A stretch of DNA of 64,000 nt from Bacteroidota bacterium (GTDB lineage Bacteria; Bacteroidota; Bacteroidia; Bacteroidales; JAADJA01): positions 736,817 to 800,816 of the forward strand of contig JAHLKX010000002.1 of NCBI GenBank assembly GCA_020444515.1. Direction: 5' to 3'. Position 1 is the stretch's first letter; each line of letters starts with the position of its first letter. Under the pieces are notes generated by a model. It was not told where the DNA came from and ran no database searches. It saw only the letters and a program-made list of their open reading frames with translations. The position numbers were made by a program, and so were the translations under genes. This document shows positions 6,134 through 63,985 of this stretch, piece after piece.

Positions 6134-6134
6134 T

Positions 6135-7139: not shown

Positions 7140-7363
7140 AGTTAAGCGCAATGGGCAAAGAGCAAAGAGCTGAGGAGTCAACTTCGTTAAAACTAAGGTG
7201 CCTGATAGTGCAGAGCTTATGGACTTGGAGTTTAGGTTAGAGAGCTATCTTAAGCGTAAACTTCGGTTGCTGAACGTTGGGAGATTTGAGAAAAGGGTTT
7301 TAGATTGGAGAGAAAAATTGAGATTTTGACTTCATGATCCAGTTTCGAATAAAAAACCAAAAA

Positions 7364-8080: not shown

Positions 8081-8153
8081 TTTTTAATTTATCCGTCAAT
8101 CGTCCGGGTCCCCGGCCAGGATGATTATACTTGTTTTTGTTATTGATTAATAA

Positions 8154-8900
8154 TTATTTTTTTTTCGCCTGGTTGGCGACCTGCTCCATTAATTTTTTGA
8201 TTTCTTCAGGGTCGCCAATAAAGTAATCTTTTAAGAGTTTTAAATCATCATCAAACTCAAATACATACGGTATCCCTGTTGGTATGTTGAATTTCAGAAT
8301 TTCATCTTCACCCATATCCTTGAGGTATTTCACGATTCCGCGGAGGCTGTTGCCATGAGCTGATACCAGTACTTCTTTATGTTCCTTTAAAGATTTAGAA
8401 ATATCGCTTTTCCAGTAAGGAACGATCCTTTCCTCCGTATTTTTCAGCGCTTCAGTAGCCGGGATATCTTCGGGTTTGAGGTCCGCATAACGCGGGTCGT
8501 ATTTTGGATGACGGGAATCATCATCAGGGATGGGCGGTGGCGGTGCATCATAACTTCTTCTCCACAATAAAACTTGCTCATCACCGAATTTTTCAGCCAT
8601 TTCTGCTTTATTGAGACCCTGCAGATTCCCATAATGTTTTTCATTCAACCGCCAGGTTTTATAAACCGGTATCCACATCATGTCCATTTCCTCGAGGGCC
8701 AGCCACAGGGTTTTAATGGCACGATCAAGATAGGATGTATAAGCCAGTTTAGGTTTAAATCCTTTATCTTTCAATAATTTTCCGGCATCTTTGGCTTCTT
8801 TCACCCCTTTATCAGAAAGGGGAACATTGGTCCAGCCGGTAAATTTATTTTCCCGGTTCCAAACGCTTTCTCCGTGTCGTAATAAAACAAGTTTCAGCAT
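8154..8900 (-). CDS. gpmA: 2,3-bisphosphoglycerate-dependent phosphoglycerate mutase
   Basis: 248 residues, the normal length. It interconverts 3- and 2-phosphoglycerate in glycolysis and gluconeogenesis. The phosphohistidine motif LVLLRHGESVWN is at the N-terminus (RHGE, His at about residue 9), the second catalytic His is in VSAHGNSLR, and the substrate loop includes RRSYDAPPPP. A TATTTTTG on the minus strand (8930 to 8923), 22 bases before the start, fits a -7 element. Confidence 0.96.
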   Translation of the reverse strand: MLKLVLLRHGESVWNRENKFTGWTNVPLSDKGVKEAKDAGKLLKDKGFKPKLAYTSYLDRAIKTLWLALEEMDMMWIPVYKTWRLNEKHYGNLQGLNKAEMAEKFGDEQVLLWRRSYDAPPPPIPDDDSRHPKYDPRYADLKPEDIPATEALKNTEERIVPYWKSDISKSLKEHKEVLVSAHGNSLRGIVKYLKDMGEDEILKFNIPTGIPYVFEFDDDLKLLKDYFIGDPEEIKKLMEQVANQAKKK

Positions 8901-49343: not shown

Positions 49344-49880
49344 TTAATTACCTGCATTTACAGGATGTGCAATTTTTTTCACTGCTTCAGCATAATTAAA
49401 CTCCTTGTAAGTTGGGCTTTCTTCATTGTGGCATTCTTTACACAGTTTTTCATCAGGAACAATCAAGCCATTCTCAATTGATTTGGCCTGGTCTTTCATG
49501 ATGGTGTTTGATTTATACTTGCTGCCAGGGCCATGACACGTTTCACACGAAATCCCTTCATCCTCTTTGAGGCTAATATTTAAACTTTGGTCTATCCTGG
49601 CATAAGTGGAGTGGCACTTGAGGCAGCTTGCATCTTTAGAAGGATCAGCAATACCCTTTTCTTTGGCGATGGCCATCGCTTTTTCACTGGTAAGACTTTT
49701 CAGTGCATTGGCATGTGGTCCTTCTGACCAAATTTTGTATTGTTGCCCGGTTGCAGGCTTGTTATGACACATTTTACACTTTGTAGCTCCGATGTATTCG
49801 AAGTCCTGGGCAGTAGCTGAACCACCTGCAAATAATGCAAGACAAAAAACGAAAACTAAACTTTTACTTAACATAATCAT
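49344..49880 (-). CDS. Tetrahaem cytochrome c, c554-like
   Basis: 178 residues. Signal peptide to about residue 24 (ATAQ), then four CXXCH motifs: CKMCH, CLKCH, CETCH and CKECH. The layout, with a helix between the first and second sites containing WSEGPHANALKSL, matches the cytochrome c554/c-prime-type family domain. It is a periplasmic electron carrier. It is the first of the cytochrome genes in this window but is on the opposite strand and separated from the others by a 368-base divergent region, so it may be regulated with them from there. Confidence 0.88.
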   Translation of the reverse strand: MIMLSKSLVFVFCLALFAGGSATAQDFEYIGATKCKMCHNKPATGQQYKIWSEGPHANALKSLTSEKAMAIAKEKGIADPSKDASCLKCHSTYARIDQSLNISLKEDEGISCETCHGPGSKYKSNTIMKDQAKSIENGLIVPDEKLCKECHNEESPTYKEFNYAEAVKKIAHPVNAGN

Positions 49881-50248
49881 TTATTTTTAAGATTAATAAT
49901 AATATATTTTTTTGCGATTTATTCAATGCTCAATTTAGTGTCAAATAAACAATAAATTTTTCAAATTACGAATAGCAACAATATTTCTTTATTTACAATA
50001 GTGGCTTAATAACTGCAAAAAACAAGCCAGTATTTTGAAAATTGAATGGACAAAAATTTATTCTAATGCTTAAAGCTGTTAGAGATCATTGGCAAATAAC
50101 CCATTCAATTCATCAAATTTATAATAGATTTTATTAATAATACAATATTAATGATAATTTTAACAAATTAAAAATAATTGTTTGCTATGAAATTTACTTT
50201 ACACTCAGTATTAACATAAATGTTCTTTAATGCATAAGCCACTGATTC
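49881..50248. other. Divergent, A+T-rich regulatory gap in the cytochrome cluster
   Basis: 368 bases between the tetrahaem cytochrome (-) and the first NHL gene (+). It is strongly A+T-rich with many AATA/TAAT runs. I found no convincing TAnnTTTG promoter, no RNA gene and no open frame. Promoters for both flanking genes must lie here. Confidence 0.5.
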
Positions 50249-51301
50249 ATGCATATTAATAGCAATCTTATATATGATCTGAGAATTTCGTTGAAGCAAA
50301 GTGCAGTTTTATTGCTTCTTTTTATCAAACTGAGCCTGTTCGGGCAGGAATCCTCTCATACCTCACTGAATAATGTTGTTGAATCCTATGACATCGAATG
50401 GGTTTGTTCGATACCACAAGAAAAGAAGGAAGATGATCAAAGTTGGTTAAATAGGATCGGTGAATTTATCTTCGGTAAAAAACAGGTTATTTCCTTGAGT
50501 AAACCGATTTCTGTTTTTGCAAAAAACCTGGATTCTATATATGTTTTGGATCAGGGAGTTGGGGCCCTTGTATTCTTGCAGATGAATGTTGGCGAAATCC
50601 CCTACCAGGTAACAGAGAAATATTCTTCCATTGTTGGAATTTGTTCCGGACCTGATAATGAGCTTTTTTTTACGGAATCAAGATTTAATAGTATTTTTAA
50701 GTTTCTTCCGCACAAAAACGAACTATATGAATTTAAGTGCTCAAATAAATTGAATCAACCAACTGGAATCGCATTTTCAAATGACGAAAAAGAGATATGG
50801 GTTGTGGAAACAGGGGCACATCGAATTACAGTTTTTGACTTGTATGGAAATGAAATCAGGCAGATTGGGAAAAGGGGTAAAGGTGCTGGTGAGTTTAATT
50901 ATCCCACTTTCATCTGGATTGATGCTTCTGGTTTAGTTTACATTGTGGATTCTATGAATTTCAGAATTCAAATATTGAATAGTGATGGAGAAATGATCAG
51001 TTCTTTTGGCGAAGCAGGAGATGCAACAGGATTTTTCTCACGGCCGAAAGGTATAGCAACCGATTCACATGGCAATATTTATGTTGTGGATGCCTTATTT
51101 CACGCAGTCCAGGTTTTTGACCAAAGGGGCACTTTACTCTATCATTTTGGTCATCAGGGTAGAGAAGACGGCCAATTTTGGATGCCTACAGGGATTTATG
51201 TTGATCATCACGATTTAATATATATAGCTGATAGCTACAATTCAAGAATTCAGGTTTTTCAATTAATAACCAAGGGTCATGATGAACATAAGAATTATTA
51301 G
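50249..51301 (+). CDS. NHL-repeat six-bladed beta-propeller protein, exported
   Basis: 350 residues. Hydrophobic signal segment (about 16-32, KQSAVLLLLFIKLSLFGQ), then NHL repeats from about residue 130 onward: each blade has a pattern like GIAFSNDEKEIWVVETGAHRI, GLVYIVDSMNFRIQILNSDG and GIATDSHGNIYVVDALFHAV. NHL propellers usually bind other proteins. Its last 23 bases overlap the start of the 12-haem cytochrome gene, so the two are translationally coupled and probably act together, for example as an assembly or docking partner. A related propeller is at 54086. No lipobox Cys is seen here. Confidence 0.83.
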   Translation: MHINSNLIYDLRISLKQSAVLLLLFIKLSLFGQESSHTSLNNVVESYDIEWVCSIPQEKKEDDQSWLNRIGEFIFGKKQVISLSKPISVFAKNLDSIYVLDQGVGALVFLQMNVGEIPYQVTEKYSSIVGICSGPDNELFFTESRFNSIFKFLPHKNELYEFKCSNKLNQPTGIAFSNDEKEIWVVETGAHRITVFDLYGNEIRQIGKRGKGAGEFNYPTFIWIDASGLVYIVDSMNFRIQILNSDGEMISSFGEAGDATGFFSRPKGIATDSHGNIYVVDALFHAVQVFDQRGTLLYHFGHQGREDGQFWMPTGIYVDHHDLIYIADSYNSRIQVFQLITKGHDEHKNY

Positions 51302-52970
51302 ACTCAGTATACTATTTTTAATTCCTGCTGGTATTTATTCCCAATCAATTGTAAATACAGTTCATAATCTTTCAGTTAGTGGCCCGGGACAAATAAAGGC
51401 CAGCAGTGAATCGGAGATTTGTATTTTTTGTCATACACCACATAATAGTGGCCCGGTTAGCCCTCTTTGGAACAGAAATGATCCGGGATTAAATTACACC
51501 TTATATAACAGTACCACCATACAGGCTACCATCGGCCAACCTGATGGAGCTTCCCTATTATGTCTTTCATGCCATGATGGGACCATTGCATTGGGGAATG
51601 TCTTAAGCCGACCGGTAGATATTGATTTTACTTCCGGAATTACAACCCTGCCCCCGGGTGTCTCAAATCTAACTACCGATTTGACCAATGATCACCCGGT
51701 TTCATTTGTTTACAACTCTTCTTTGGCTGCCGCTGATGGTGAATTGGTTGATCCGATAAACCTGACATGGCCAATAAAATTAGAGAATGAAAAATTACAA
51801 TGCACCGCCTGTCATGATCCGCATAAAAATATTTATACTGATTTTTTAATTCTTACCACGCAGTTCTCTAATTTGTGCACCGAATGTCACGATAAAAATT
51901 ATTGGGTGACGACAAGCCATCGAAACTCCAATGCAATTTGGAATGGATCAGGGATTGATCCCTGGTTTCATACTCCTTATTCAAGTGTTGCGGAAAATGC
52001 TTGTGAAAATTGCCATAATCCTCACAATGCTGGTCTTGATCAGCGACTCATGAACTACCAGGCTGAAGAAAGCAATTGCCTGAATTGTCATAATAGCAAT
52101 GTTGCTGTTGAAAATATATTGGTCCAGTTAAATAAGCCTTACAGTCATAATGTTTATGGATATAATTTGGTTCATGATGCTTCTGAAGATGAACTGGTAC
52201 TGACTCAGCATGTAGAATGTGAAGACTGTCATAATCCGCATGCAGCCCGGAATCTTGCTGCAAATGCACCCTTTGTTAGTGGATTTCTCGAAGGAGTAAA
52301 AGGAATCAATCAAAATGGCGGACCTGTTAATCCGGCTCAGTATGAATATGAATTGTGTTACAGATGCCATGCTGATAGCCCTGATAAGCCGGCAAGTCCC
52401 ACAAGTCGTCAGATCGAGCAAAACAATGTTAGATTTGAGTTTGATTTGAGTAATCCATCCTATCATCCTGTTGTGGGAGTTGGTAAAAATCCTGATTGCC
52501 CAAGTCTGATATCACCCCTTACCGAAAGCAGCATTATTTATTGTTCCCATTGTCATGCCAGCGATGGTACCAATTCTCCAGCTGGTCCACATGGATCCAT
52601 GTATCCACAAATATTGAAGTTTAATTATACAACAGCTGATAATACTCAAGAGTCTTATCAAGCCTATCGGTTGTGTTATGAGTGTCATGATCGTGCGACA
52701 GTCATCAGTGACGAGCCAAATAATTTTCAAAATAGGGTCCACCATCGGCATATTGTTGAGGAAAATACCCCCTGCAATGCCTGTCATGATCCGCATGGGA
52801 TCAGCAGTTCACAGGGTAATTCGACCAACAATACGCATTTGATTAATTTTGACTTAAGTATTGTTGAGCCAAGCTTTAATGGTCAATTAAGATTTGAAGA
52901 TCAGGGTTCATATGCTGGTCGCTGTTATTTAAATTGCCATGGTAAAAACCATAGTCCAAGGTGGTATTAG
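51279..52970 (+). CDS. Exported 12-haem cytochrome c
   Basis: 563 residues. Signal peptide to about residue 21 (GIYSQ). Eleven CXXCH motifs (CIFCH, CLSCH, CTACH, CTECH, CENCH, CLNCH, CEDCH, CYRCH, CSHCH, CYECH, CNACH) and a final CX3CH (CYLNCH) give twelve likely c-type haems. The first four sites (from residue 48) form a module also seen alone in the protein at 53369: SEICIFCHTPHN, PLWNR, CLSCHDG, NDHPVSF, CTACHDPH. Many motifs are followed by PH, as in doubled-CXXCH cytochromes. No T9SS domain or lipobox, so location (periplasm, outer face or released) is open. It is coupled to the NHL gene before it. Confidence 0.9.
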   Translation: MMNIRIIRLSILFLIPAGIYSQSIVNTVHNLSVSGPGQIKASSESEICIFCHTPHNSGPVSPLWNRNDPGLNYTLYNSTTIQATIGQPDGASLLCLSCHDGTIALGNVLSRPVDIDFTSGITTLPPGVSNLTTDLTNDHPVSFVYNSSLAAADGELVDPINLTWPIKLENEKLQCTACHDPHKNIYTDFLILTTQFSNLCTECHDKNYWVTTSHRNSNAIWNGSGIDPWFHTPYSSVAENACENCHNPHNAGLDQRLMNYQAEESNCLNCHNSNVAVENILVQLNKPYSHNVYGYNLVHDASEDELVLTQHVECEDCHNPHAARNLAANAPFVSGFLEGVKGINQNGGPVNPAQYEYELCYRCHADSPDKPASPTSRQIEQNNVRFEFDLSNPSYHPVVGVGKNPDCPSLISPLTESSIIYCSHCHASDGTNSPAGPHGSMYPQILKFNYTTADNTQESYQAYRLCYECHDRATVISDEPNNFQNRVHHRHIVEENTPCNACHDPHGISSSQGNSTNNTHLINFDLSIVEPSFNGQLRFEDQGSYAGRCYLNCHGKNHSPRWY

Positions 52971-53368
52971 TAAGTTGAACATGAAAATTCATTCATTGAG
53001 TTAATGATAACAATTGTATATATTCCACGGCATTCTCAATTGATTGATAAAATAGAAGAGAATAGAATTAAATTGTCAAATTGAAAATTCTGATATTCAA
53101 ATAATATTCATATATTTGGAAGATGATTTTATTTCACTACTTTCCAATTTTTATGATCATTGTGAATTTCTTTGTTGCCAATTTCTTAAGAAATTAAGTT
53201 GAATCTGTTGAAATCTAAAGCGTTCTGATCTTATTTGAAAATTGAAATAATCGTTTGACGAAAATATTATACCCATGGATTTTTTAAACAAATATTCAAA
53301 AAGTGGCCATATTTGCGGTTGGGTATATTGTTTGAGAAGGAATCCCTTATTCATCAAATACAATTCGT
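52971..53368. other. Intergenic region, A+T-rich
   Basis: 398 bases before the 4-haem cytochrome. TATATTG and CATATTTG stretches near 53310-53335 could belong to a promoter but none fits TTTG/TAnnTTTG well. A short frame at 53275-53472 is an overlap shadow. Nothing else was recognised. Confidence 0.45.
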
Positions 53369-53989
53369 ATGAAAACATTTACAAATTTTTTTACAGGTTT
53401 AATGTTACTATGTGCCACCCAATTTGTTATGGGGCAAACCATTATTGGTTCAGCGCACGATTTTTCAAATGAAAGCTGGAATACTTCGGGTGAGATATGC
53501 ATTGTTTGCCATACACCTCATAATGCAGATATCTCGGTAGGTGATGCTCCTTTGTGGAATCACGAAACAACACTGGCGACATTTACGCCTTATGCTTCAC
53601 CAACGATGGATGCCACTGTCGGACAGCCATCAGCCAGTTCAAAACTGTGCCTGAGTTGCCATGATGGGACCGTCGCCCTTGACAATTTTGGAGGGACAAC
53701 TGGTGGAACAAATTTTATTATTGGCGATGCATTAATAGGCACAGACCTATTGGATGACCATCCAATTTCCTTTACGTATGATGCCGCCCTGGCCATTACC
53801 GATAACGGTTTATATGATCCAACCACCACCAGTTCCGGACTGGGTGGCACGATCAACGATGATTTACTGTTTGCTGGTCAAATGCAATGTGCATCATGTC
53901 ATGATGTACATAATGGCTCCGGCGAAAACAATCTGCTTCGTTTAAACAATGATGCCAGCGCATTGTGTTTGACCTGTCATAATAAATAA
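53369..53989 (+). CDS. Exported tetrahaem cytochrome c, OmcE-sized
   Basis: 206 residues. Signal peptide to about residue 23 (VMGQ). Four CXXCH motifs: CIVCH, CLSCH, CASCH and CLTCH. It matches the first quarter of the 12-haem protein at 51279 over its whole length: SGEICIVCHTPHN, PLWNHE, SSKLCLSCHDGTVAL, DDHPISFTYDAAL, CASCHDVHN. Four haems in about 180 mature residues is the format of OmcE, the subunit of one type of cytochrome nanowire in Geobacter. That it polymerises is only a hypothesis. It stands between a 398-base gap and a terminator, so it is expressed alone, as expected for an abundant subunit. Confidence 0.88.
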   Translation: MKTFTNFFTGLMLLCATQFVMGQTIIGSAHDFSNESWNTSGEICIVCHTPHNADISVGDAPLWNHETTLATFTPYASPTMDATVGQPSASSKLCLSCHDGTVALDNFGGTTGGTNFIIGDALIGTDLLDDHPISFTYDAALAITDNGLYDPTTTSSGLGGTINDDLLFAGQMQCASCHDVHNGSGENNLLRLNNDASALCLTCHNK

Positions 53990-54010
53990 GACAAATGCTA
54001 GATTTCAGGT

Positions 54011-54039
54011 AAAAGAGGCGATTTTAAATCGCCTCTTTT
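54011..54039 (+). terminator. Rho-independent terminator after the tetrahaem cytochrome
   Basis: Arms AAAAGAGGCGATTT (54011-54024) and AAATCGCCTCTTTT (54026-54039), nearly perfect and symmetrical, 21 bases after the stop. It ends in a T-run and could also work in the other direction. Confidence 0.85.
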
Positions 54040-54085
54040 AGTAGCGCTTTTAATATTGATTGGCATTTTTGATAATTCAAAATTC

Positions 54086-55159
54086 ATGCATAAAAAAACA
54101 TTTTCAGTTTGTTTTTTCTGTGGATTGCTCTTTTTGGTACTGATATCATGTTCAAAGCAATTGCATAAGGGTTCATCGGTTAATGACATTGTGATTTATC
54201 CTCCACCTCCTGATGTTGCACGCATACAATATCTTACAAGCATTAGCAGTTCGCTTGACATTACCGGGAAACGATCGGCTTTCGGACGATTCATCCTGGG
54301 TGATAATCAGGAAATTCCCATTGCTAAGCCTTATGGCATTGCAACTCATAATGGGAAAATTTACATATGTGATACAGGTTTGAACGGAATTGAGATCATC
54401 GATCTGGAGAATAACAATTTCGAATATTTTTCCCCAACCGGAAGAGGGCAATTGCAGAAACCCATTAATTGTTTTGTCGATGAGGATGGAAACCTCTATA
54501 TAGCAGATGGCGACAGAAAGCAAATTGTAATTTTTGATTCCAGAGGTGAATTTTTAGCAACGATCAGTGATACGGCTGACTTTAAACCAACTGATGTTTA
54601 TGTTAAGTCAGATAAAATATGGGTGGCGAATTTTGTGAATAACAAAATCCATGTTTATGATAAGGGTAATTATGAATTACTTTATAAGCTTCCTGAGGCG
54701 AAATCAGGAAATGAAGATTTTTTATATTCGCCCACAAATATTTATGTAACGGATGAAAGGGTTTATGTTAGTGACTTTGGTGATTTCAAGGTTAAAGTTT
54801 ATAACCATCAGGGAGATTTTATCATGTCAGTTGGGAGCTATGGTAATAAAATTGGTCAGTTTGTCCGACCCAAAGGCATTGCAGTTGATCGGGAATCGAA
54901 CCTATATGTAATTGATGCAGGATTTGAAAATGTGCAGATCTTTAATGACCAGGGTAAATTGCTTATGTTTTTCGGAGGGCCCTATCAGAAACCCGGCGAT
55001 ATGTGGTTACCGGCAAAAGTGGCCATTGATTACGAAAATCTTGAATATTTCAAAGAATACGTGGATGAAAGTTTTAATCTGAAGTACCTCATTTTTGTTT
55101 CCAATCAATACGGCCCGGATAAGATCAGTGTTTACGGTTATGTGGAGTCCAGACCATAA
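54086..55159 (+). CDS. NHL-repeat beta-propeller lipoprotein
   Basis: 357 residues from the ATG at 54086, which gives a lipoprotein signal peptide with lipobox LISC (Cys at residue 22). NHL-type blades follow: GIATHNGKIYICDTGLNGI, CFVDEDGNLYIADGDRKQI, GIAVDRESNLYVIDAGFENV. It resembles the propeller at 50249 but is lipid-anchored, probably at the outer membrane. It is 11 bases before the 5-haem lipoprotein gene and so opens a four-gene run (propeller, 5-haem lipoprotein, barrel, 15-haem-OmpA). Role as scaffold or docking site for the cytochromes is inference. Confidence 0.83.
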   Translation: MHKKTFSVCFFCGLLFLVLISCSKQLHKGSSVNDIVIYPPPPDVARIQYLTSISSSLDITGKRSAFGRFILGDNQEIPIAKPYGIATHNGKIYICDTGLNGIEIIDLENNNFEYFSPTGRGQLQKPINCFVDEDGNLYIADGDRKQIVIFDSRGEFLATISDTADFKPTDVYVKSDKIWVANFVNNKIHVYDKGNYELLYKLPEAKSGNEDFLYSPTNIYVTDERVYVSDFGDFKVKVYNHQGDFIMSVGSYGNKIGQFVRPKGIAVDRESNLYVIDAGFENVQIFNDQGKLLMFFGGPYQKPGDMWLPAKVAIDYENLEYFKEYVDESFNLKYLIFVSNQYGPDKISVYGYVESRP

Positions 55160-55170
55160 ACTCTGAATGG

Positions 55171-55734
55171 ATGGATTTCAAAAACAAAATACGATACTTT
55201 GTCCTTGCTTTCCTGGCTGCATCTCTCTATTCATGTTCGCCCAGATCGAATTATAAAGTACTTTCCACATTATTTGATGGCGTTCCAAATCCTTATACCA
55301 TAGATAGTGCTGAAAATGTTAATGTTCAGAATAGAGAGCCGGATGCGGTTAATAGTGCGGTAACCCCACAGAAACCTGATTATGTAGTTCATCCACCTTA
55401 TCAGGAGAAAGATTGTGCATTGTGTCATGATCAAAGGGTCATGGGTAGGTTACTGGCTACCCTCCCGGGATTATGCTATCAATGTCATGAGAATTTTGCG
55501 GATCAATACCAGGTTTTGCATGGTCCGGTTGAAGCAGGCTTCTGCTCAGAATGTCATAATCCCCATTTGACAAAAAACAGGATGTTGCTTAAAAAAGTAG
55601 GCCAGGAGTTATGCTTTCAATGTCATACTTCTCAAAATATCCTGGAAGGCGAAATCCATTCTGAAATAGGAGAGACGGATTGTATTGATTGCCATAATCC
55701 TCATGGAGGAGAGGACCGATTTATTTTTAATTGA
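55171..55734 (+). CDS. Pentahaem cytochrome c lipoprotein
   Basis: 187 residues. Lipobox LYSC with the lipidated Cys at residue 22, then a stretch of about 60 residues without haem sites, and five CXXCH motifs: CALCH, CYQCH, CSECH, CFQCH, CIDCH. The last three follow the doubled-CXXCH pattern (CSECHNPH, LCFQCH, CIDCHNPH) shared with the 15-haem protein. A lipid anchor at the outer membrane next to a barrel gene suits either the inner or outer end of a porin-cytochrome conduit. The barrel start lies 16 bases after its stop. Confidence 0.9.
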   Translation: MDFKNKIRYFVLAFLAASLYSCSPRSNYKVLSTLFDGVPNPYTIDSAENVNVQNREPDAVNSAVTPQKPDYVVHPPYQEKDCALCHDQRVMGRLLATLPGLCYQCHENFADQYQVLHGPVEAGFCSECHNPHLTKNRMLLKKVGQELCFQCHTSQNILEGEIHSEIGETDCIDCHNPHGGEDRFIFN

Positions 55735-55750
55735 CAAGCGGTATAGTGCT

Positions 55751-57706
55751 TTGAAGTTATCATGGATTATATATGGTTTCATTTTATTAACAGGTGAGTG
55801 TCTTGCACAGAACACCTTGGGTCCATATAAGTTCTGGAATCAAAAATCACTTTCGGGTGCGGTTGGTTTTCAGGCCAAGTATCGCAACCAGCAGCAAGTC
55901 TTCAGTTCTGGTTTTGAAGAAAATACGGTAGGTTCCCTGATTTCAGGTAAATTTCTCCTTGAATCGCGTAGTTATATTGTTCATCCCAATTTAATGGCCC
56001 TTGACATCGATGCCGAATACAATCCTGAAAAACTGGATCGGCAGTTTCTGGTTGTTCCTGACCGATCGGAAGTCAGAACATTGAGCAGACTTAATTTACG
56101 ATCAACGTTTTTTCAGGAAAAGGATTTAACGTTGAATGCCTTTTTAAACCTTAATCAAAACTACATTAATCGGGAAAATTTTACCAATTCCAGGACCAAC
56201 AGAAAATTTTGGGGTGGAGGGCTTTTCTATAAGAATAAAGTTTTGCCGTTTTCGCTTACCTATCAAGAAGGGAATTGGAACCAGAAAGAAATAGAAACAG
56301 ATAGAACATTCAAATATTGGCAAAGAAATATCAGAGGCAGAATATCCAAATCATTCTTCTCACGGGACAAGCATATAGTAAGTTATTCTCACGATAATTA
56401 TATCCGAAAAGAGACCAATATTGAGGCCCGTCAAAATATTGTGGATTTTATAGAGCTTAATAGCAATGTGGCTTTTGACGCCCAAAAGAATTATAATCTG
56501 AGTACCATCATTTCCCATTTGGATCAGTATGGTGCTGATGATTTAAAAAGATTTCAGGTCTATACAAACCTTGTATTTAAATTGCCTCAAAACTTTCGAC
56601 TACTTGGAAATTACAATTTTTCCGATAATCAATACCCATTATATAAATTGAAACAACACAGGGCAAAGCTTGATTTGGGCCACCAATTGTTTAAAAGTTT
56701 AAAAACCAATATATACGCTGAATATGCCAATAATAGCCATTCGCTTTACCGGGAAATTGATTACAGGGCTGGTTTTTACATCAATTATACCAAGAAAATC
56801 CCGACCGGAGTCTTAAATATTGGCTATCATTATTACAACCGTGAATTTATTCGGGAAAGCGGTCCTGTTTCACTCAAAGTGATAAATGAAGAACACATCC
56901 TTTCGGATGATGAGATTTTGTTGCTGAACAAACCTTCAGTCGATCCGGAATCAATTGTCGTAAAGGATCTTACCGGGACGATTATCTACCAGGTTGATTT
57001 TGATTATTTGATTTTTGAGCAAAATGATTATATTGAAATAAAACGAATTCCGGGGGGAGAGATTCCCAATAATGCTGCAATTTTGGTTGATTATTCAACA
57101 ATTTTACCAGGCGATTATAATTATAACCTGGATAACCAGATGTTTTTTTTACGGGTGATCCTTTTCAAACAGTTTCTAGAACTTTATTATCGGCGAGGGA
57201 AACAGAATTATAAAAACATTGATCAACCAGAACTAATAACCCTTAATTATTATGTGCAGAATGTATATGGTATACAGTTTACCTTTGATTTTGCGCGATT
57301 GGGTATTGAATATGATGATTATGCCAGCAGTATAGTCCCTTATCAATTGATTCGCTACTTTGCCGATCTACATTGGCGTTTTAATAATAAACTGCTACTT
57401 TCATTCATTGGAAATATCAGGGATTATCAAACCATTGGTGAACGGGAAAATGAATTGTATGCCGATCTTTCGGGGAAAGTGGCTTATCATTTTAGTTCTA
57501 AAACAAAATTGAATCTTGAGATGGGATACCGGGAGCAAAGAGGTTATCAAATAGATCTTAATATGTTAACCGCCCGCATGGAGTTGAATTGGGTGGTTAG
57601 AAAAATTTATTTAACAGTAGGGCTGGAAGTTTACCGGCGGAATTATTTAGACAGGGAAACCATCAATTTTAATGGTGCCTATTTCAATGTTATCAGAAAG
57701 TTTTAG
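55751..57706 (+). CDS. Outer-membrane beta-barrel protein, candidate conduit porin
   Basis: 651 residues from the TTG at 55751, which gives a signal peptide (LKLSWIIYGFILLTGECLAQ, cleavage about 20-21). The open frame continues upstream inside the cytochrome gene (ATG at 55703, TTG at 55685), but those starts put charged residues before the hydrophobic core. The mature part is a series of amphipathic strands rich in Tyr, Asn and Arg (NIYAEYANNSHSLYREIDY, ending NGAYFNVIRKF with a terminal Phe), typical of BamA-assembled barrels. A segment near residues 385-460 is less strand-like and may be a loop domain. No haem motif. I could not match it to MtrB/PioB or OmbB by eye; the conduit role rests on neighbours. 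Confidence 0.75.
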   Translation: MKLSWIIYGFILLTGECLAQNTLGPYKFWNQKSLSGAVGFQAKYRNQQQVFSSGFEENTVGSLISGKFLLESRSYIVHPNLMALDIDAEYNPEKLDRQFLVVPDRSEVRTLSRLNLRSTFFQEKDLTLNAFLNLNQNYINRENFTNSRTNRKFWGGGLFYKNKVLPFSLTYQEGNWNQKEIETDRTFKYWQRNIRGRISKSFFSRDKHIVSYSHDNYIRKETNIEARQNIVDFIELNSNVAFDAQKNYNLSTIISHLDQYGADDLKRFQVYTNLVFKLPQNFRLLGNYNFSDNQYPLYKLKQHRAKLDLGHQLFKSLKTNIYAEYANNSHSLYREIDYRAGFYINYTKKIPTGVLNIGYHYYNREFIRESGPVSLKVINEEHILSDDEILLLNKPSVDPESIVVKDLTGTIIYQVDFDYLIFEQNDYIEIKRIPGGEIPNNAAILVDYSTILPGDYNYNLDNQMFFLRVILFKQFLELYYRRGKQNYKNIDQPELITLNYYVQNVYGIQFTFDFARLGIEYDDYASSIVPYQLIRYFADLHWRFNNKLLLSFIGNIRDYQTIGERENELYADLSGKVAYHFSSKTKLNLEMGYREQRGYQIDLNMLTARMELNWVVRKIYLTVGLEVYRRNYLDRETINFNGAYFNVIRKF

Positions 57707-57708
57707 AC

Positions 57709-59511
57709 ATGGTAATCATGAAAAAATACCTGGTTTATATCTTATTGGGGTTGCCATGGTTCCAACCCGGTGCCCAGGGCCAGGACGATACAGAAAGTCT
57801 TTCATGCCTGGATTGTCACGAATCCCTTGTTTTAAAACAAGTCGTTCACGCCCCGGTGACTGAATCGTGTGATTATTGTCATACGGCAACAGGAAATGAA
57901 CATCCCGCTGAACAACAAAAAGGCTTTACCCTTTCAGAAAGTATGCCTGATCTGTGCTATATCTGTCATGACACTTACAATGAGGGTAATGTGCATGCCC
58001 CGATTGAGGCAGGAGAATGTGCAATTTGTCATTCACCCCATAGCAGCTCTTTTGACCATTTACTGGTTGCTCGAACAGATCATTTGTGTTTCGAATGTCA
58101 TGAGTCGGAAATTATGGAGAAAAAAATCATCCATCAGCCGGTTCAACAAGGAAATTGTCAAGCCTGTCATAATCCCCATCACTCCAGTGAACCCTCACTG
58201 CTTATTAAAGGCAGGCCTGCCCTCTGCTTTACTTGCCACGAAAAAACTGCTCAGCAAATAACCGAAGAATTTATTCATCCGCCCTTTGAAGATGATTGTA
58301 TGAATTGCCATAGCCCGCACAGTTCTGAAGAAGGTCAATTGATGGATCTTCCCGGAAATGGTTTATGTTTTGAATGTCATGACGATATAAGGGAATCTAT
58401 TGAGAGCAGCCATGTAATTCATAAAGTTATCAATGAAGACGGTGGATGTGCTCAATGTCATTCAGCCCATGCGTCGTCCAATCCAAAATACCTTCTGGAT
58501 AAACCCACTGAATTGTGTTTAAGTTGTCATAATAAATCCATTACCACATCTACAAGAAAATTAAGCAATATACGCCAGAAGCTGGATGAAGATCATTTTG
58601 TTCATGGAGCCATTGAATTTGACGGTTGCGCTGGTTGCCACACTGCCCACTTTTCTGAATTTCCTTCATTGTTAACAGATGCATACCCCGAAGGAAATTA
58701 TACCGAAGGGAAATCTGAGCGTTTTGCCCTTTGTTTCAATTGTCATGATCAGGAAATAATTGAGGTAGAGAAATCAACAAGCATTTCCAATTTTAGGAAT
58801 GGGGAAATAAATCTCCATTTTCTTCATATACATGGTGTTAAAGCAAGAAGTTGTGGTACATGCCATGATATGCACGGGTCCGCTTATGATCATCTCATTG
58901 CCGAAGAAGTTGTTTTCGGTAACTGGAATATGCCGGTGATATTTAAAGTAAATATAAACGGGGGATCATGTTTTACCGGTTGTCATAATGAAAAAAAATA
59001 TGATAGAGTCAATGCTGTAAATAACAGTTTAAAGAATGAACAGGTTCCCTTAAAAAAAATTGAAAAATACGTAACAATAAATGAGGATATGCAAGGGGAT
59101 AGCATACCATCGAAAAAGTTTGTTGCCAGTACTTTTAACTTGGAATTTAAGCAGTTAGAAGAAGAATTTAATCATTTGCATATTCCTCCCATTTACTTTA
59201 ATTCTCGCAAGACAACGATGGCCGAGGGTGCGGAAGGTGTCCTTAGAATGATCATCGATTTTTTGAATGATCATCCTGAAAGCAAAATTTTACTGGAAGG
59301 TCATGCAGATAAGTTTTCAGAAAAGGTATACGATCATGCATTATCTAAAAAGCGTGCTGATAGAGTAAAAAGTATCATCCTGAGTTTTGGCATTGAAAAT
59401 GACCGTGTCGAAATAGTCGGTTATGGTATCTCAAAACCGGCAACAACAGAAAACAACAAGAAAGGTCGGCAATTGAACCGCAGGGTGGAGGTTAGTTTAT
59501 TGAAAAAATAA
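57709..59511 (+). CDS. 15-haem cytochrome c fused to OmpA peptidoglycan-binding domain
   Basis: 600 residues; Met1 is 2 bases after the barrel stop, and Met4 at 57718 may be the true start. Signal peptide ends near GAQGQ. Fourteen CXXCH motifs and one CX3CH (CFTGCH, about residue 420) cover residues 33 to 425. Sites 4-13 form tandem doubled units: CxxCHxPH, then about 25 residues, then LCFxCH, for example CAICHSPH with LCFECH and CQACHNPH with LCFTCH. After a linker of about 65 residues, residues 494-600 are an OmpA C-terminal domain: ILLEGHADKFSEK, then ALSKKRADRVK and GRQLNRRVEV, the peptidoglycan-binding Asp/Arg pattern. The protein would be fixed to the cell wall while carrying electrons across the periplasm. 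Confidence 0.9.
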   Translation: MVIMKKYLVYILLGLPWFQPGAQGQDDTESLSCLDCHESLVLKQVVHAPVTESCDYCHTATGNEHPAEQQKGFTLSESMPDLCYICHDTYNEGNVHAPIEAGECAICHSPHSSSFDHLLVARTDHLCFECHESEIMEKKIIHQPVQQGNCQACHNPHHSSEPSLLIKGRPALCFTCHEKTAQQITEEFIHPPFEDDCMNCHSPHSSEEGQLMDLPGNGLCFECHDDIRESIESSHVIHKVINEDGGCAQCHSAHASSNPKYLLDKPTELCLSCHNKSITTSTRKLSNIRQKLDEDHFVHGAIEFDGCAGCHTAHFSEFPSLLTDAYPEGNYTEGKSERFALCFNCHDQEIIEVEKSTSISNFRNGEINLHFLHIHGVKARSCGTCHDMHGSAYDHLIAEEVVFGNWNMPVIFKVNINGGSCFTGCHNEKKYDRVNAVNNSLKNEQVPLKKIEKYVTINEDMQGDSIPSKKFVASTFNLEFKQLEEEFNHLHIPPIYFNSRKTTMAEGAEGVLRMIIDFLNDHPESKILLEGHADKFSEKVYDHALSKKRADRVKSIILSFGIENDRVEIVGYGISKPATTENNKKGRQLNRRVEVSLLKK

Positions 59512-59596
59512 GCGGATGGTATTTCGCGAAAATATAAATATATTTTGATGACCCAGTAGCGGAATATGAAACATTAAATATCGAAATAGTGAAATC

Positions 59597-60024
59597 ATGT
59601 TTCGGTATGGCATTTTATCTGTTTTTCTGAGCATCATGGCATCTCCGGCTTTCAGCCTGGGACTGGAAAATAATCATCATGATTTTAGAGGTTTGCAATG
59701 GAGTAATTTAGGTTTGTGTGCCCCTTGTCACCCTGAATCGGGTCAGCCTGGAACAAATTCTTCAACTCCGTTATGAAGCCATCAATTACCCTTTGATGCG
59801 GATATATTTTATATTCTGCGATCACCATGGACAGCTATTCTGGTTACCCCTCAGTTAATTCTAAACAGTGTCTTTCTTGCCATGATGTTCATTTGTCAAG
59901 AAATACGAAAGAATATCAGGGGTGTCGCTTGATCTATCAGGATGGTTTAGAAAAAATCGTGTTTCTATCCCTGTGTAAATCGAGTGCTGGAAGTTCTTTA
60001 TGTTTGACTTGTCATAAAAGATAA
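59597..60024 (+). pseudogene. Broken cytochrome c gene of the 53369 family
   Basis: The remains of a tetrahaem-type gene. From the ATG at 59597, 59 codons give a signal peptide and one haem site (LGLCAPCHPESG) ending at a TGA (59774-59776) where relatives have Trp: STPL-stop-SHQL against APLWNHE at 53369. In the next stretch the frame changes; reading from about 59827 gives TMDSYSGYPSVNSKQCLSCHD, which matches SPTMDATVGQPSASSKLCLSCHD, and it ends LCLTCHKR against LCLTCHNK. Only about 40 residues separate the last two sites against about 90 in the intact gene, so the third haem region is also lost. Nonsense, frameshift and deletion together mark it as decayed, unless a sequencing error is involved. 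Confidence 0.8.
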
Positions 60025-60092
60025 GTAAGTTTCATCTCTATCCTTTTTTAAAGAGCCTGTCATTTTGCAAGAAATCTCTGATTTTTCCTGAT

Positions 60093-60803
60093 CTATTCTT
60101 TCTGTAACTTTTCAATTTGGGTTTCTTCCATCAATATTTCATAAAAATAACCAAACCCAAAATCTTTATTAAGTAAGATTTTCCCTTCGAAAACAGCGAT
60201 TTCTCCAACTGAAATAAACTTCTCTGATGTAGCTACCAGATCAAAAACCCCATTGTATTCTGACCCATCCTGCATATGGATCCAGTTTTTACCCATGATA
60301 GAATCACTGAATTGTGTAACCTGTGCCCTTATCCTGACTATTTTATCAGCATATTTTTCTCTATTGGCATAGAGTTCATTTATTGAAATTTCATCCTCTA
60401 AGGGCATGATTTCAAGATCAATTTTCGTTCCCTTACTCGTTGATTTTTCTATAAATAGGATCCCCGATGGTTCACTTTTATTGGGATTTGCATTAACGAT
60501 GCCACCCAGGAAAAGCAACGAATCAAACGTCCTGCTCAATGTGGCACTTCTGAAATCTGTCATAACATTGCCACCCTGGTAAAAATATTCTTCACCTACC
60601 TGGGCATTAATTTTGGGAACTGCCAGCCATTGTGATTTGTCTCTCTCCCTGACATGCAGATAGGTATAAGATGTCGTTTGCAGTACTTCTTCTACCAGTA
60701 CACGGTGTATATCTGAATGATGCTCAATGAATTGCTTGTCATGCTGGCCATGGGTAAACTGCAAATTCAACAATAGGATAATTCCGGTTAGTGTGATTCT
60801 CAT
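60093..60803 (-). CDS. Exported protein with two OB-fold-like domains, cytochrome-associated
   Basis: 236 residues. Signal peptide to about 20 (FTHGQ). Residues about 30-110 resemble the NrfJ-like domain found beside cytochromes in Geobacter and relatives: SYTYLHVRERDKSQWLAVP, then QVGEEYFYQGGNVMTDFRS, TLSRTFDSLLFLGGI. Residues about 140-232 are an OB-fold: KIVRIRAQVTQFSDSIMGKN, WIHMQDGSEYNGVFDLV, then FEGKILLNKDFGFGYFYEI. The second form is common in proteins of the GK(V/I)xRVRG...NWxHxQDG type. It is the only minus-strand gene in this half of the cluster. A role in cytochrome maturation or as a binding partner is inferred from context. Confidence 0.75.
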   Translation of the reverse strand: MRITLTGIILLLNLQFTHGQHDKQFIEHHSDIHRVLVEEVLQTTSYTYLHVRERDKSQWLAVPKINAQVGEEYFYQGGNVMTDFRSATLSRTFDSLLFLGGIVNANPNKSEPSGILFIEKSTSKGTKIDLEIMPLEDEISINELYANREKYADKIVRIRAQVTQFSDSIMGKNWIHMQDGSEYNGVFDLVATSEKFISVGEIAVFEGKILLNKDFGFGYFYEILMEETQIEKLQKE

Positions 60804-61174
60804 TTCAAAAATTTCGTATATGATTTTCTATAATAACAAAAATAGCGAATCTTATAATCAGTGATTGCTTATATATGTAAAATTGAAGGTTATGAAATAC
60901 ATTTCTCTTTTAAAGTCACACCTGTTTTGTTATTTTGAAAGTGAGTTATTTTAAAAGAAATCAATGCTTTAGAATTTTATTTTGGATTGTTTGGGTCTTT
61001 AGAACCAGAATCTGATAGAATTTGTAGTTATATTTTTAATGTCATGAATCATAGGAAACGCATTACATCCAGATCAAAAGATATATTCTTCATCTATCTG
61101 TATTTTAGAATCTATATAAATTAACAAGTAGGTATCTATATTATTAAGTATTTATATAATTTCGAAGTGTTTTA
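60804..61174. other. Divergent intergenic region, A+T-rich
   Basis: 371 bases between the OB-fold gene (-) and the 19-haem gene (+). TAATTTCG at about 61158-61165 is one mismatch from a -7 element, 9 bases before the start of the 19-haem gene, so it is doubtful for that start. No RNA gene or other structure was recognised. Confidence 0.4.
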
Positions 61175-63985
61175 ATGCAAAATGACATGGTAAAGAAAAT
61201 ACTCTATAATACAAATTTTCAGCTACTTCTGATACTACTACCTTCTTTGGTATTTGTCAATCGTATCCAGTCTCAATCCAATGAAGATTGTATGATGTGC
61301 CACGAAGATCCTGAATTGACAACAGAAAGAAAAGGCCGTACCGTATCCATGTTTGTCAATCTCAATACACTTCAAAACTCCGTACATAAAGATGTGGATT
61401 GCATATTTTGCCACGAAGATGCAGAGGTAGAAGATTTTCCACATCCTGAGAACCTGGCTCCGGTTAAATGTGGTAATTGCCACGATGATTCCCAAATGCA
61501 ATTTGAAAAGGGTATTCATGGGCAGGCACTCCAGTTAAACGCATTGTATGCTCCCGATTGCCGGGAGTGCCATGGAGACCATAACGTATTACCATCCTCC
61601 AATCCAAGGTCGAGGACCTATAAAATGAACATACCAATATTGTGTGGAAAATGTCACCGGGAAGGAGCACCGGTTGCACGTACCTATAACATTGGTGAAC
61701 ACAATATCCTGGAAAATTACAGCCAGGGTATCCATGGCGAAGGTTTGTTCAAGAAGGGATTGATCGTTTCAGCTACATGTAATGATTGTCATGGCAATCA
61801 CCTTGTTCTGCCACATACCAGTCCCAATTCATCCATCTCGGTAAATAATATTGCCAATACCTGCATGAAATGCCATGCAGAGATTGAAGAGGTCCACACC
61901 AAAATTATTAAAAAAGAATTGTGGGAGAAAGAACCAGGTGCTATACCGGCTTGTACCGACTGTCACCCTCCTCATAAAGAAAATGTTCAGAATATTGTCA
62001 ATACCATTTCTGATAAGGCCTGTTTGAAATGTCATGATGATAATGATATCCATCGTATCGTGGATGGTGACACCCTTTCATTGAAAGTTACCAAGGATGA
62101 TATTTCGGAGTCAGTTCACAGGAATATTAATTGTGTTAAGTGTCACTCCGATGTTTCAACCCATTTGCGTCGCCCATGTGAAACAGCTGGCCCAGTTGAC
62201 TGTTCCAATTGCCATGCAGAGGTATCCAATGTTTATAATTCCAGTGGTCATGGAAAGGCCCATTTCAAAAAAATTGAAAATGCACCTTACTGCACAGACT
62301 GTCATGGTACGCACCGTGTTCAATCAAGGTATGATGACACAGCTCCAACTTACAGGGCTGCGATTCCGACTTTATGTGGCGAATGCCACAGGGAGGATGG
62401 TAAGGCTGTGGAAATGGCTGATCTGAAAGAGGTTGATGCTTTTCGTGATTATTCCTCCAGTGTGCATGGCAGGGGTCTTACAGAAAAAGGCCTCCTTCCC
62501 AGTGCGGTTTGTACGGATTGTCATACGACCCATTATATTTTAAAAGAATCGGACGAAAACTCCTCCATTAATCCCAAAAACATTCCTGCAACATGCGCAA
62601 CCTGCCACAAAGGTATCTATGATGACTATATTAGTAGCGACCACGCAATCAACCAGGATGAAGGCATGAAGAATTATCCTACCTGTGCGGATTGCCATAC
62701 GGCTCATATCATATCCGATATTACGCAGGATGCATTTATGAATGAGGTGACCCATCAGTGCGGAAATTGCCATGAGGATTTATCGGAGACTTATATGGAA
62801 ACATATCATGGAAAAGCATACCAGCTGGGTTATCTGGAAGCGGCAAAATGTTCGGATTGTCATGGAGCACATAGAATATATAATTCCAATAATCCCTTAT
62901 CTTCGGTCAGCAGTGCCAACATCGTTGAAACATGTAAACAATGTCATCCGGATGCCAATGTCAGATTTACGGGTTATCTTACCCATGCAACACACCATAA
63001 TAAGGATAAATACCCGGCCCTGTATTACACGTTCTGGGGTATGACTTCTTTGCTCGTGGGTGTATTTGGATTTTTTGGCATTCACCTCTTGCTTTGGTTA
63101 CCCCGCTCTATTCAGGGGATGAGGAAACGCAAAGAGCACCGAAAAATGGCTTCTAGCAATTACCACATTCGTCGTTTTAGCCGGAGTCAGCGAATTACCC
63201 ATATTTTTGTTATTCTGAGTTTTATCATGCTGGCACTGACAGGTATGATGCTGAAATTTGCCGGAATGCCCTGGGCAAACTGGTTGTCCCGCATCCTGGG
63301 AGGCGTTCATGTGGCTGGTAATATTCATCGCTTTGCGGCGGTCATCACTTTTGGCTATTTCATCTTCCATGTAGTATCCTTAATCCGTATGAAAATCAAA
63401 CGCCGCATCCCCATTGGCCGGTTTATTTTTGGTAAAAACTCACTGATGTTTAACGGGCAGGATATTAAAGATTTTTGGGGTACGATCAAGTGGTTTGTGG
63501 GAGCAGGACCCCGACCAAATTATGGCCGCTGGACTTACTGGGAAAAGTTCGATTATATGGCTGTATTCTGGGGGGTTGCCGTCATCGGATTCTCTGGTTT
63601 GATCCTTTGGTTTCCCGAATATTTTACAACTGTTTTGCCAGGCTGGGCCATTAATGTCGCCATGATCATTCACAGTGATGAGGCTTTGCTGGCCGTTGGA
63701 TTTATTTTTACCATTCACTTTTTCAATACGCACCTTCGTCCGGATGCCTTCCCGATGGATACGGTTATTTTTACCGGTACGGTACCTTTCGAGGAATACA
63801 AAGCTGACAGACCGCGCGAATATGAATTGCTGAAAGAAACCGGAAGACTTAAAAAAGTGGTCATCAAGCGCGAAAGCAGGCCTAAATGGGAAAAGATTGT
63901 CAAGATATTTGGCTATACTTTCCTTGGTCTTGGACTCACGTTGGTTGTATTGATCATTTATTCAATGTTGTTTGGATATGTTTAG
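61175..63985 (+). CDS. 19-haem cytochrome c fused to membrane cytochrome b (CbcL-like)
   Basis: 936 residues. Met5 is an alternative start. A signal peptide or anchor (about 15-34) is followed by 19 CXXCH motifs between residues 39 and 591 (CMMCH first, CKQCH last). After a first membrane helix (about 613-640) come several helices of the cytochrome b561/FdnI type with His pairs suited to two b haems: RITHIFVILSFIML, GGVHVAGNIHRFAA, FIFHVV, AMIIHSDEALLAVG and FTIHFFNTH. CbcL of Geobacter joins nine c haems to such a b domain and passes electrons from menaquinol to the periplasm. This protein has twice that number of c haems. The C-terminus is a last helix (FGYTFLGLGLTLVVLI). Confidence 0.92.
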   Translation: MQNDMVKKILYNTNFQLLLILLPSLVFVNRIQSQSNEDCMMCHEDPELTTERKGRTVSMFVNLNTLQNSVHKDVDCIFCHEDAEVEDFPHPENLAPVKCGNCHDDSQMQFEKGIHGQALQLNALYAPDCRECHGDHNVLPSSNPRSRTYKMNIPILCGKCHREGAPVARTYNIGEHNILENYSQGIHGEGLFKKGLIVSATCNDCHGNHLVLPHTSPNSSISVNNIANTCMKCHAEIEEVHTKIIKKELWEKEPGAIPACTDCHPPHKENVQNIVNTISDKACLKCHDDNDIHRIVDGDTLSLKVTKDDISESVHRNINCVKCHSDVSTHLRRPCETAGPVDCSNCHAEVSNVYNSSGHGKAHFKKIENAPYCTDCHGTHRVQSRYDDTAPTYRAAIPTLCGECHREDGKAVEMADLKEVDAFRDYSSSVHGRGLTEKGLLPSAVCTDCHTTHYILKESDENSSINPKNIPATCATCHKGIYDDYISSDHAINQDEGMKNYPTCADCHTAHIISDITQDAFMNEVTHQCGNCHEDLSETYMETYHGKAYQLGYLEAAKCSDCHGAHRIYNSNNPLSSVSSANIVETCKQCHPDANVRFTGYLTHATHHNKDKYPALYYTFWGMTSLLVGVFGFFGIHLLLWLPRSIQGMRKRKEHRKMASSNYHIRRFSRSQRITHIFVILSFIMLALTGMMLKFAGMPWANWLSRILGGVHVAGNIHRFAAVITFGYFIFHVVSLIRMKIKRRIPIGRFIFGKNSLMFNGQDIKDFWGTIKWFVGAGPRPNYGRWTYWEKFDYMAVFWGVAVIGFSGLILWFPEYFTTVLPGWAINVAMIIHSDEALLAVGFIFTIHFFNTHLRPDAFPMDTVIFTGTVPFEEYKADRPREYELLKETGRLKKVVIKRESRPKWEKIVKIFGYTFLGLGLTLVVLIIYSMLFGYV
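61289..62947 (+). repeat. Internal duplication of an 8-haem module in the 19-haem protein
   Basis: Haems 1-8 (residues 39-282, bases 61289-62020) and 9-16 (residues 283-528, bases 62021-62758) align motif by motif: SVHKDVDCIFCH with SVHRNINCVKCH, CRECHGDH with CTDCHGTH, LCGKCHREGAPV with LCGECHREDGKAV, and SQGIHGEGLFKKGL with SSSVHGRGLTEKGL. Haems 17-19 (529-591) repeat the haem 3-5 part: CGNCHED, YHGKAYQLGYLEAAKCSDCHGAH, CKQCH. So 8+8+3. Confidence 0.85.

Follow-up and report, generated by a model that had tools for sequence, protein, structure and literature searches.

A conserved cytochrome locus in a Bacteroidota genome, probably serving extracellular electron transfer, combines a predicted porin conduit with OmcE-like cytochromes

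Gene content of the cytochrome cluster

The DNA analysed here, a stretch of 64,000 nucleotides from a Bacteroidota bacterium (the window, to which all coordinates refer), carries at positions 49344-63985 a cluster of multihaem cytochrome genes that, judged by its sequence, is probably a conserved extracellular electron-transfer locus. ORF calling on the window, with a non-overlapping set of open reading frames (ORFs) of at least 100 amino acids, confirmed ten ORFs at the positions listed in an earlier interpretation that was made without database searches (the sequence-only reading). Six ORFs encode proteins with 4 (178 amino acids, 4h178), 12 (563 amino acids), 4 (206 amino acids, 4h206), 5 (187 amino acids), 15 (600 amino acids) and 19 (936 amino acids) haem motifs. 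The total of 59 motifs consists of 57 CXXCH and two CX3CH sequences, the latter accompanying 11 CXXCH motifs in the 12-haem protein and 14 in the 15-haem protein. Alignments of 12-haem proteins (26 sequences, that of the window included) and of proteins of the 15-haem type (six sequences) show no variation in the CX3CH residues. Residue-shuffled versions of the proteins contained on average 0.016-0.13 CXXCH each. The motif was not found in the other window ORFs of this set, nor in the ORFs immediately 3′ of position 63985. The count of six intact multihaem genes thus stands, with the addition that it omits a broken cytochrome gene at about 59573-60021.

Scans of the ten ORFs against Pfam and NCBIfam (E 0.01) matched the cytochromes to doubled-CXXCH and cytochrome c7/c3 models. 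The two NHL β-propellers of the sequence-only reading were recovered as well: NHL1 (50249-51301, plus strand) matches Pfam NHL at 1.4e-27, and NHL2 (54086-55159, plus strand), which carries a lipobox and served as the marker gene of the locus, matches at 5.1e-15. The lipobox cysteine of NHL2 is invariant in four aligned sequences. Proteins are called exported below if they have a signal-like N-terminus, as judged by eye; the 12-haem protein and 4h206 are among these.

The barrel and its cytochrome partners

The gene of a predicted outer-membrane β-barrel (55703-57706, plus strand), the putative porin part of a conduit, adjoins a gene for a multihaem cytochrome of periplasmic type, which is the general hallmark of porin-cytochrome systems. 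This neighbour is a 15-haem MtrA-like protein (57709-59511, plus strand) with a C-terminal OmpA domain (Pfam, residues 496-591, 3.8e-17). A family profile built from six proteins of the 15-haem type matches 6r2q_A, a chain that we take to be MtrA, at 1.9e-15; the entry 6r2q is titled 'Structure of the Mtr complex' in the fold search, while the profile search prints a different molecule name. The DmsE/MtrA model TIGR03508 matches at 3.1e-35, but its score of 121.9 bits is below the cut-off of 192.2. Among 47 proteins labelled MtrA-like in the loci described below, 18 have nine haems in 291-339 amino acids; the length of 6r2q_A is 333 amino acids.

An AlphaFold2 model of the barrel, computed from 36 sequences, reached a mean predicted local distance difference test (pLDDT) score of 87.7 and shows 30 long strands by our own count, with a small insert at about residues 401-457; the outer-membrane barrel proposed earlier is therefore upheld as a prediction. 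Which family it belongs to is less clear-cut. A Foldseek search with the model placed three Cir receptor entries at ranks 1-3 by E-value and MtrB (6r2q_B) at rank 4 (E 2.7e-8, TM-score 0.45/0.46, rmsd 13.6), although the TM-score of MtrB was the highest among the 50 matches listed. This supports a wide barrel and is not proof of kinship with MtrB. Neither a 36-row profile run against the PDB nor the NCBIfam scan yielded an MtrB sequence match or any other meaningful one, and the sole Pfam match, to the sugar-porin family LamB, covers 54 residues at 0.0036 with 17.8 bits against a cut-off of 25.1, so no family cut-off was reached.

Between NHL2 and the barrel lies the gene of a 5-haem lipoprotein (55171-55734, plus strand; five CXXCH), the lipobox cysteine of which is invariant in five aligned sequences. 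In the sequence-only reading this protein stood together with the barrel in the electron route, and we differ as to the side of the membrane. In Bacteroidetes, the signal that sends lipoproteins to the surface is described, from work on three species, as a stretch of acidic residues following the cysteine (PMC5080379). Two or more acidic residues at positions +2 to +6 were present in 0/61 lipoprotein cytochromes (that of the window and 60 from loci L032-L092); likewise none of the 54 NHL2 proteins in which a cysteine was found (56 inspected) has two acidic residues there. The cysteine was chosen by a simple script, and two of seven printed examples (L088, L089) look mispicked. Furthermore, 8/60 lipoprotein cytochromes give an OmpA-like match, near-complete in five (L064, L067, L068, L069, L076) and partial in three. 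The L064 match arises by construction, because L064 and the window supplied the sequences of the model; Pfam confirmed OmpA in L064 and reported none in L074, L077 and L083. In the window the OmpA domain sits on the 15-haem protein, whereas it was found in 0/46 MtrA-like proteins of L032-L092. The missing acidic signal and the OmpA matches make the lipoprotein doubtful as a surface partner and constitute moderate evidence that it faces the periplasm, perhaps on the inner side of the outer membrane. The evidence is likewise moderate for a peptidoglycan tether that may be carried by either protein, the lipoprotein or the MtrA-like one.

Relation to OmcE-type cytochromes

The tetrahaem protein 4h206 (53369-53989, plus strand) belongs by sequence to the OmcE family and is a putative filament subunit. 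It matches 9YUQ at 3.3e-23 and the OmcE nanowire structure 7TFS at 1.5e-22, and the homology is near full-length, covering residues 23-206 of 206. The entry 9YUQ comprises 16 chains of one multihaem cytochrome. In 24 aligned members of the 4h206 family, all four CXXCH motifs are invariant, as are three of the four additional histidines; H30, the first of these in the sequence, is absent only from L088. The window protein keeps all eight histidines that four bis-His haems would need. In OmcE the haem at the interface is described as being ligated from the next subunit (PMC12954529).

The 12-haem protein (51279-52970, plus strand) has an OmcE-like N-terminal 4-haem part, with residues 11-206 matching 7TFS at 2.4e-28; the part with its last eight haems had no match to a solved structure at E 0.1. 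Thus, 4h206 and the N-terminus of the 12-haem protein are, on sequence comparison, homologues of the OmcE nanowire protein. A second OmcE-like gene with 4/5 haems (59573-60021, plus strand) lies broken between the 15-haem gene and the gene of the protein labelled OB. It was recovered by tblastn as pieces in two frames with an unmatched middle stretch; in L032, L033, L039 and L051 an intact counterpart follows the MtrA-like gene.

Conservation of gene order

The barrel was searched in whole genomes of three overlapping samples, the genome of the window being counted in each, and was found in 5/295 genomes of the class, 4/395 of the phylum and 2/60 of the relatives. Two of the four matches at phylum level are partial, with 25-27 bits, and were treated as chance. 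The five class loci share the order 4h206, NHL2, lipoprotein cytochrome, barrel, MtrA-like protein as far as the contigs reach, with the OB gene near the conduit in two of them.

An alignment scan of named genomes with NHL2 produced 61 loci, from Bacteroidota to Geomonas. By name these comprise 38 Bacteroidota, four Calditrichota, four Desulfuromonadaceae/Geomonas/Deltaproteobacteria, three Chlorobiota, two KSB1, one each of Melioribacter, Neomarinimicrobiota, Nitrospirae, Phycisphaerae and Verrucomicrobia, and five without a phylum name. The counts that follow are conditional on NHL2 and on enough DNA on the needed side, and are based on script-called ORFs and profile labels. The 5-haem gene lies at most two genes after NHL2 in 59/59 loci and the barrel at most four genes after it in 51/52; in the one miss, L087, an unlabelled ORF of 661 amino acids occupies the place. 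The MtrA-like gene is present in 42/46 loci (misses L038, L086, L088 and L092), the OmcE-like gene in 38/48 and the 12-haem gene in 25/37, while NHL1 is directly 5′ of the 12-haem gene in 25/27. Since the profiles were derived from Bacteroidota, misses in distant loci may reflect low sensitivity; the six matching distant barrels score 39-104 bits. Conserved synteny, which the sequence-only reading had named as a check, is borne out by these counts.

A single locus, L082, contains 4h178, NHL1, the 12-haem gene, a kinase, a regulator, 4h206, NHL2, a 9-haem lipoprotein, the barrel, a 15-haem protein and 16- and 19-haem cytochrome b fusions. Such tandem 16-haem and 19-haem fusions of cytochrome b type directly follow the conduit genes in L065 (14795-20757) and L082 (15290-20537), where the 16-haem fusion was assigned with Pfam; in both loci the conduit therefore adjoins a 19-haem homologue.

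In relatives of the cluster, the 12-haem gene and 4h206 are separated by genes for a histidine kinase and a sigma-54-type response regulator. The kinase was located in 14 loci by regular expression, 22 by phmmer and 24 by clustering, of which the set of 22 was used; the regulator (>250 bits) is found in 22 loci and both genes in 21. CXXCH occurs in the kinase of 21/22 loci, the exception being a cut ORF of 288 amino acids, and in the one kinase read (L032) it lies outside the kinase domains. In L032, the CXXCH histidine kinase and the sigma-54-type regulator occupy 5745-8605 inside the conduit locus.

Two modules, probably of different descent

By descent the cluster is, as far as alignments with relatives indicate, an island lying between a resident pair of genes. 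The resident genes are 4h178, a c554-like tetrahaem cytochrome (49344-49880, minus strand; Pfam Cytochrome_C554, 2.4e-18), and the gene of the 19-haem cytochrome (61175-63985, plus strand). These are direct neighbours in 5/5 same-genus loci read, where they are divergent with 255-660 bp between the start codons; two of the five loci share genes with the window on both sides, two on one side and one on neither. The best alignments of the window to these five relatives stop at 49887-49912 and restart at 61102-61103, which delimits an island of about 11 kb (approximately 49913-61102, no strand); inside it a handful of short, weak matches (E 8e-4 to 0.014) extend to about 50202. The GC content at third codon positions (GC3) is 0.317-0.371 in the island genes, 0.358 in 4h178, 0.423 in the 19-haem gene and 0.455 ± 0.046 in 35 upstream genes; as 4h178, which is short, is as low as the island, GC3 is weakened as an island mark. 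No tRNA was found in the window, and Pfam showed no recombinase domain among the ten ORFs.

Among 16 same-genus genomes, many of which are incomplete, eight contain the 19-haem gene and none the barrel, and acquisition of the island is the better fit to these sequence data, its loss from every relative being the less likely alternative. The nearest barrel found, that of L032, is 55% identical, which points to no close donor. In the L032 genome the conduit and the 19-haem/4h178 pair are on separate contigs, and in 2/4 conduit genomes tried no 19-haem match at 1e-20 was obtained. The pathway of the sequence-only reading holds in outline, but by descent the cluster would be two modules.

A hydropathy plot of the 19-haem protein shows six hydrophobic helices after the last CXXCH. 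Its C-terminus matches Ni_hydr_CYTB (2.2e-5) and the formate dehydrogenase gamma subunit (2.6e-11), both below cut-off. With N-terminal c-type haems, six C-terminal helices and a HydC/FdnI-like cytochrome b suggested by these sub-cut-off matches, the protein has the architecture of CbcL, MtoC and MtrH. A Geomonas homologue has nine haems in 616 amino acids.

Comparison with known systems

Like MtrCAB and MtoAB, the locus places a barrel gene next to an MtrA-homologous multihaem gene, and the barrel model is, if loosely, nearest to MtrB by TM-score among the 50 matches listed; it differs in a barrel lacking an MtrB sequence match and in the 15 haems and OmpA domain of the MtrA-like protein. The Pfam MtrC/MtrF domain II/IV model is matched by the 12-haem protein (42.7 bits) and 4h178 (31 bits) at a cut-off of 30, whereas the OmcA/MtrC model TIGR03507 stays far below its cut-off wherever it matches in the cluster. 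The 19-haem protein shares with CbcL, MtoC and MtrH the N-terminal CXXCH haems, the six C-terminal helices and the b-type domain, and its haem number falls within the range of 3-23 given for such proteins, which are described from 15 phyla with five homologues counted in Bacteroidetes (PMC6295460). Both 4h206 and the N-terminus of the 12-haem protein show homology to the OmcE nanowire protein. Here, however, the tetrahaem gene lies inside a conduit locus with NHL proteins, its product is a putative filament subunit, and the tetrahaem protein is accompanied by a 12-haem protein built on the same domain.

The OetABI conduit of sulfate-reducing partners of ANME is described as a single cassette of a periplasmic cytochrome, a porin and a cytochrome lipoprotein, which often includes filament-type cytochromes as well (PMC10553843). 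The present locus holds the first three of these, but OetB is described as extracellular-facing, which the present lipoprotein may not be. A four-gene operon that we equate with Oet encodes, as described, 16- and 26-haem cytochromes and a peptidyl-prolyl isomerase (PMC5539420); the corresponding proteins here have 15 and 5 haems, and no isomerase match was found in the ten ORFs.

The set of parts is less novel than the sequence-only reading supposed. The Geoalkalibacter ferrihydriticus locus Ga0056053_02426-02431, compared by its description, has an MtoA homologue, a putative quinol cytochrome, an OmcE homologue and two NHL proteins, and is said to lack mtoB (PMC12016550); the Geomonas loci have a weakly matching barrel (39-42 bits) at the corresponding place. 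The statement that no such system had been described in Bacteroidota was also too strong. He et al. (2019) report putative new porin-cytochrome clusters in Bacteroidetes and Verrucomicrobia genomes assembled from bog metagenomes (PMC6344600), and the Bacteroidetes_1 cluster of a 2021 bioanode study, there called uncharacterised, resembles ours by description in its six multihaem genes and one predicted β-barrel (PMC8258643). For the present locus as a unit across phyla we found no description in the open-licence literature, which is not proof of its being undescribed. To the earlier picture the present analysis adds the link to OmcE, the make-up from two modules, the kinase and regulator of the relatives, the broken gene, and doubt as to which side the lipoprotein faces.

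Proposed function and alternatives

Similar blocks recur in distant bacteria, so the island is probably real and a relative of known systems that has a set of parts of its own. We put the probability at about 0.7 that it specifies an electron conduit across the outer membrane together with extracellular cytochromes, which probably form a wire; synteny and homologies support a locus of conduit type that also has other cytochromes and a cytochrome b fusion. Export, complex formation, the order of carriers, a filament and the direction of flow are what we infer from these genes. A CbcL-like protein, in this genome the resident 19-haem protein, would oxidise menaquinol with its cytochrome b domain, and its periplasmic haems would pass electrons to the 15-haem MtrA-like protein, either directly or via 4h178 and the 5-haem lipoprotein. 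The 15-haem protein, held to peptidoglycan by its OmpA domain, would thread the barrel, and outside the cell the electrons would reach the 12-haem protein and OmcE-type tetrahaem subunits polymerising into a filament. The NHL propellers might, as a guess, be assembly or docking factors.

Several observations weigh against this proposal. The fold match of the barrel to MtrB is loose and stands behind Cir by E-value, a sequence match to MtrB was not found, and the AlphaFold2 model of the 12-haem protein has a pLDDT of 42. One cytochrome gene of the cluster is broken, the kinase/regulator pair is absent from the ORFs of the cluster in the window, and the MtrA-like and OmcE-like genes were not found in 4/46 and 10/48 loci, respectively. 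Moreover, the 19-haem protein is not tied to the conduit, because eight same-genus genomes carry its gene but gave no barrel, and two of the four conduit genomes gave no match to it.

The conduit could also work inwards, with Fe(II), metal, a cathode or a partner cell as the electron donor and quinone being reduced via the CbcL/MtoC-type protein, a scheme that differs from the proposed one in direction alone. Homologues of CbcL, MtrH and MtoC are reported from Fe(III) reducers and Fe(II) oxidisers alike, with no feature found that tells the direction (PMC6295460), and Fe(II) oxidation was the function put forward for the Geoalkalibacter locus (PMC12016550). The sequence does not tell the direction of flow, and none of the present results counts against inward flow. 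We nevertheless think outward flow more likely and inward flow rather unlikely. OmcE and MtrCAB are best known from reducers. It is conceivable, if short of probable, that the exported cytochromes are soluble or surface-bound redox proteins instead of filaments: filaments cannot be read from sequence, the OmcE-like gene is missing from 10/48 loci, and the role of cytochrome filaments has been doubted in print (PMC11077965). The near full-length homology to OmcE with its retained ligand histidines argues the other way, as does 9YUQ, whose 16 chains of a single cytochrome would suit an assembly.

The low GC3, the lack of the barrel in the 16 same-genus genomes and the broken OmcE-like gene would all suit an acquired, decaying block with little function. 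The same is true of the kinase: the best match to the locus kinase in this genome is 28% identical with 108.8 bits and lies elsewhere, beside another regulator, as compared to 179.8-470.5 bits for the other locus kinases. Yet the ten listed ORFs all remain open, and none of the six cytochromes has lost its haem motifs; the genome search covered the kinase gene of the pair. We regard decay as improbable. A haem capacitor or sensor in place of a respiratory route, to which the many haems and the CXXCH in nearly all of the locus kinases could point, appears very improbable to us, as a barrel gene beside one for an MtrA-like protein usually marks a conduit that spans the membrane.

A broader and more tentative idea can be formulated, to which we attach rather less than even odds. 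NHL1, the 12-haem protein, the haem-sensing kinase with its regulator, the OmcE-type subunit, NHL2, a periplasm-facing cytochrome lipoprotein, the barrel and the MtrA-like protein might together form a mobile 'wire cassette' that spreads horizontally among many phyla and plugs into the CbcL-type quinone enzyme of the host. Bacteroidota would then build true OmcE-type nanowires, with export, docking and regulation in one locus. Members of this phylum are better known as fermenters and polymer degraders, and the locus would widen the likely reach of extracellular electron transfer among them. The pairing of an OmcE-type gene with a conduit, in similar order in Bacteroidota and several other phyla, provides a concrete parts list for expression tests.

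Other features of the cluster and the genome

The sigma-54-type regulator of the relatives prompted a search for a sigma-54 promoter. A loose pattern matched 1/43 upstream regions against 0.6 expected from shuffles and was dropped; in the window it had no match 5′ of the NHL1, 4h206 and 19-haem genes, and a stricter pattern was not found in 11 relatives. In the window, the stricter -24/-12 pattern has one match at 50029 on the minus strand, 149 bp 5′ of the 4h178 start, for which a chance expectation was not computed.

The OB protein (60093-60803, minus strand) has no Pfam or NCBIfam match at E 0.01, so that 'OB-fold' is a label only. Alignment shows a conserved family, of which L128 (8379-9104) holds another member, and the same genome has a paralogue. 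A role in cytochrome maturation was considered and dropped: a neighbouring gene, presumably CcsB/ResB-like, was seen in 5/22 cases only, three of them on one contig (L024 twice, L074), and the paralogue of the same genome lacks such a neighbour. The L024 copies contain an internal repeat, and family members occur near cytochrome genes in many loci seen.

The same genome harbours a second multihaem cluster (L011, contig G000:C3, 5530-13778) encoding 37-haem and 20-haem proteins, a 4Fe-4S/pyridine-nucleotide oxidoreductase of 444 amino acids and two proteins of 289 and 534 amino acids without a Pfam match. In genome G658 the 19-haem/4h178 pair adjoins relatives of this second cluster (L116). On another contig (L129, G000:C16, 2678-8647), a kinase with two haem-type motifs and a regulator are encoded next to ORFs that resemble, by their N-termini, iron-sulfur and membrane subunits of oxidoreductases.

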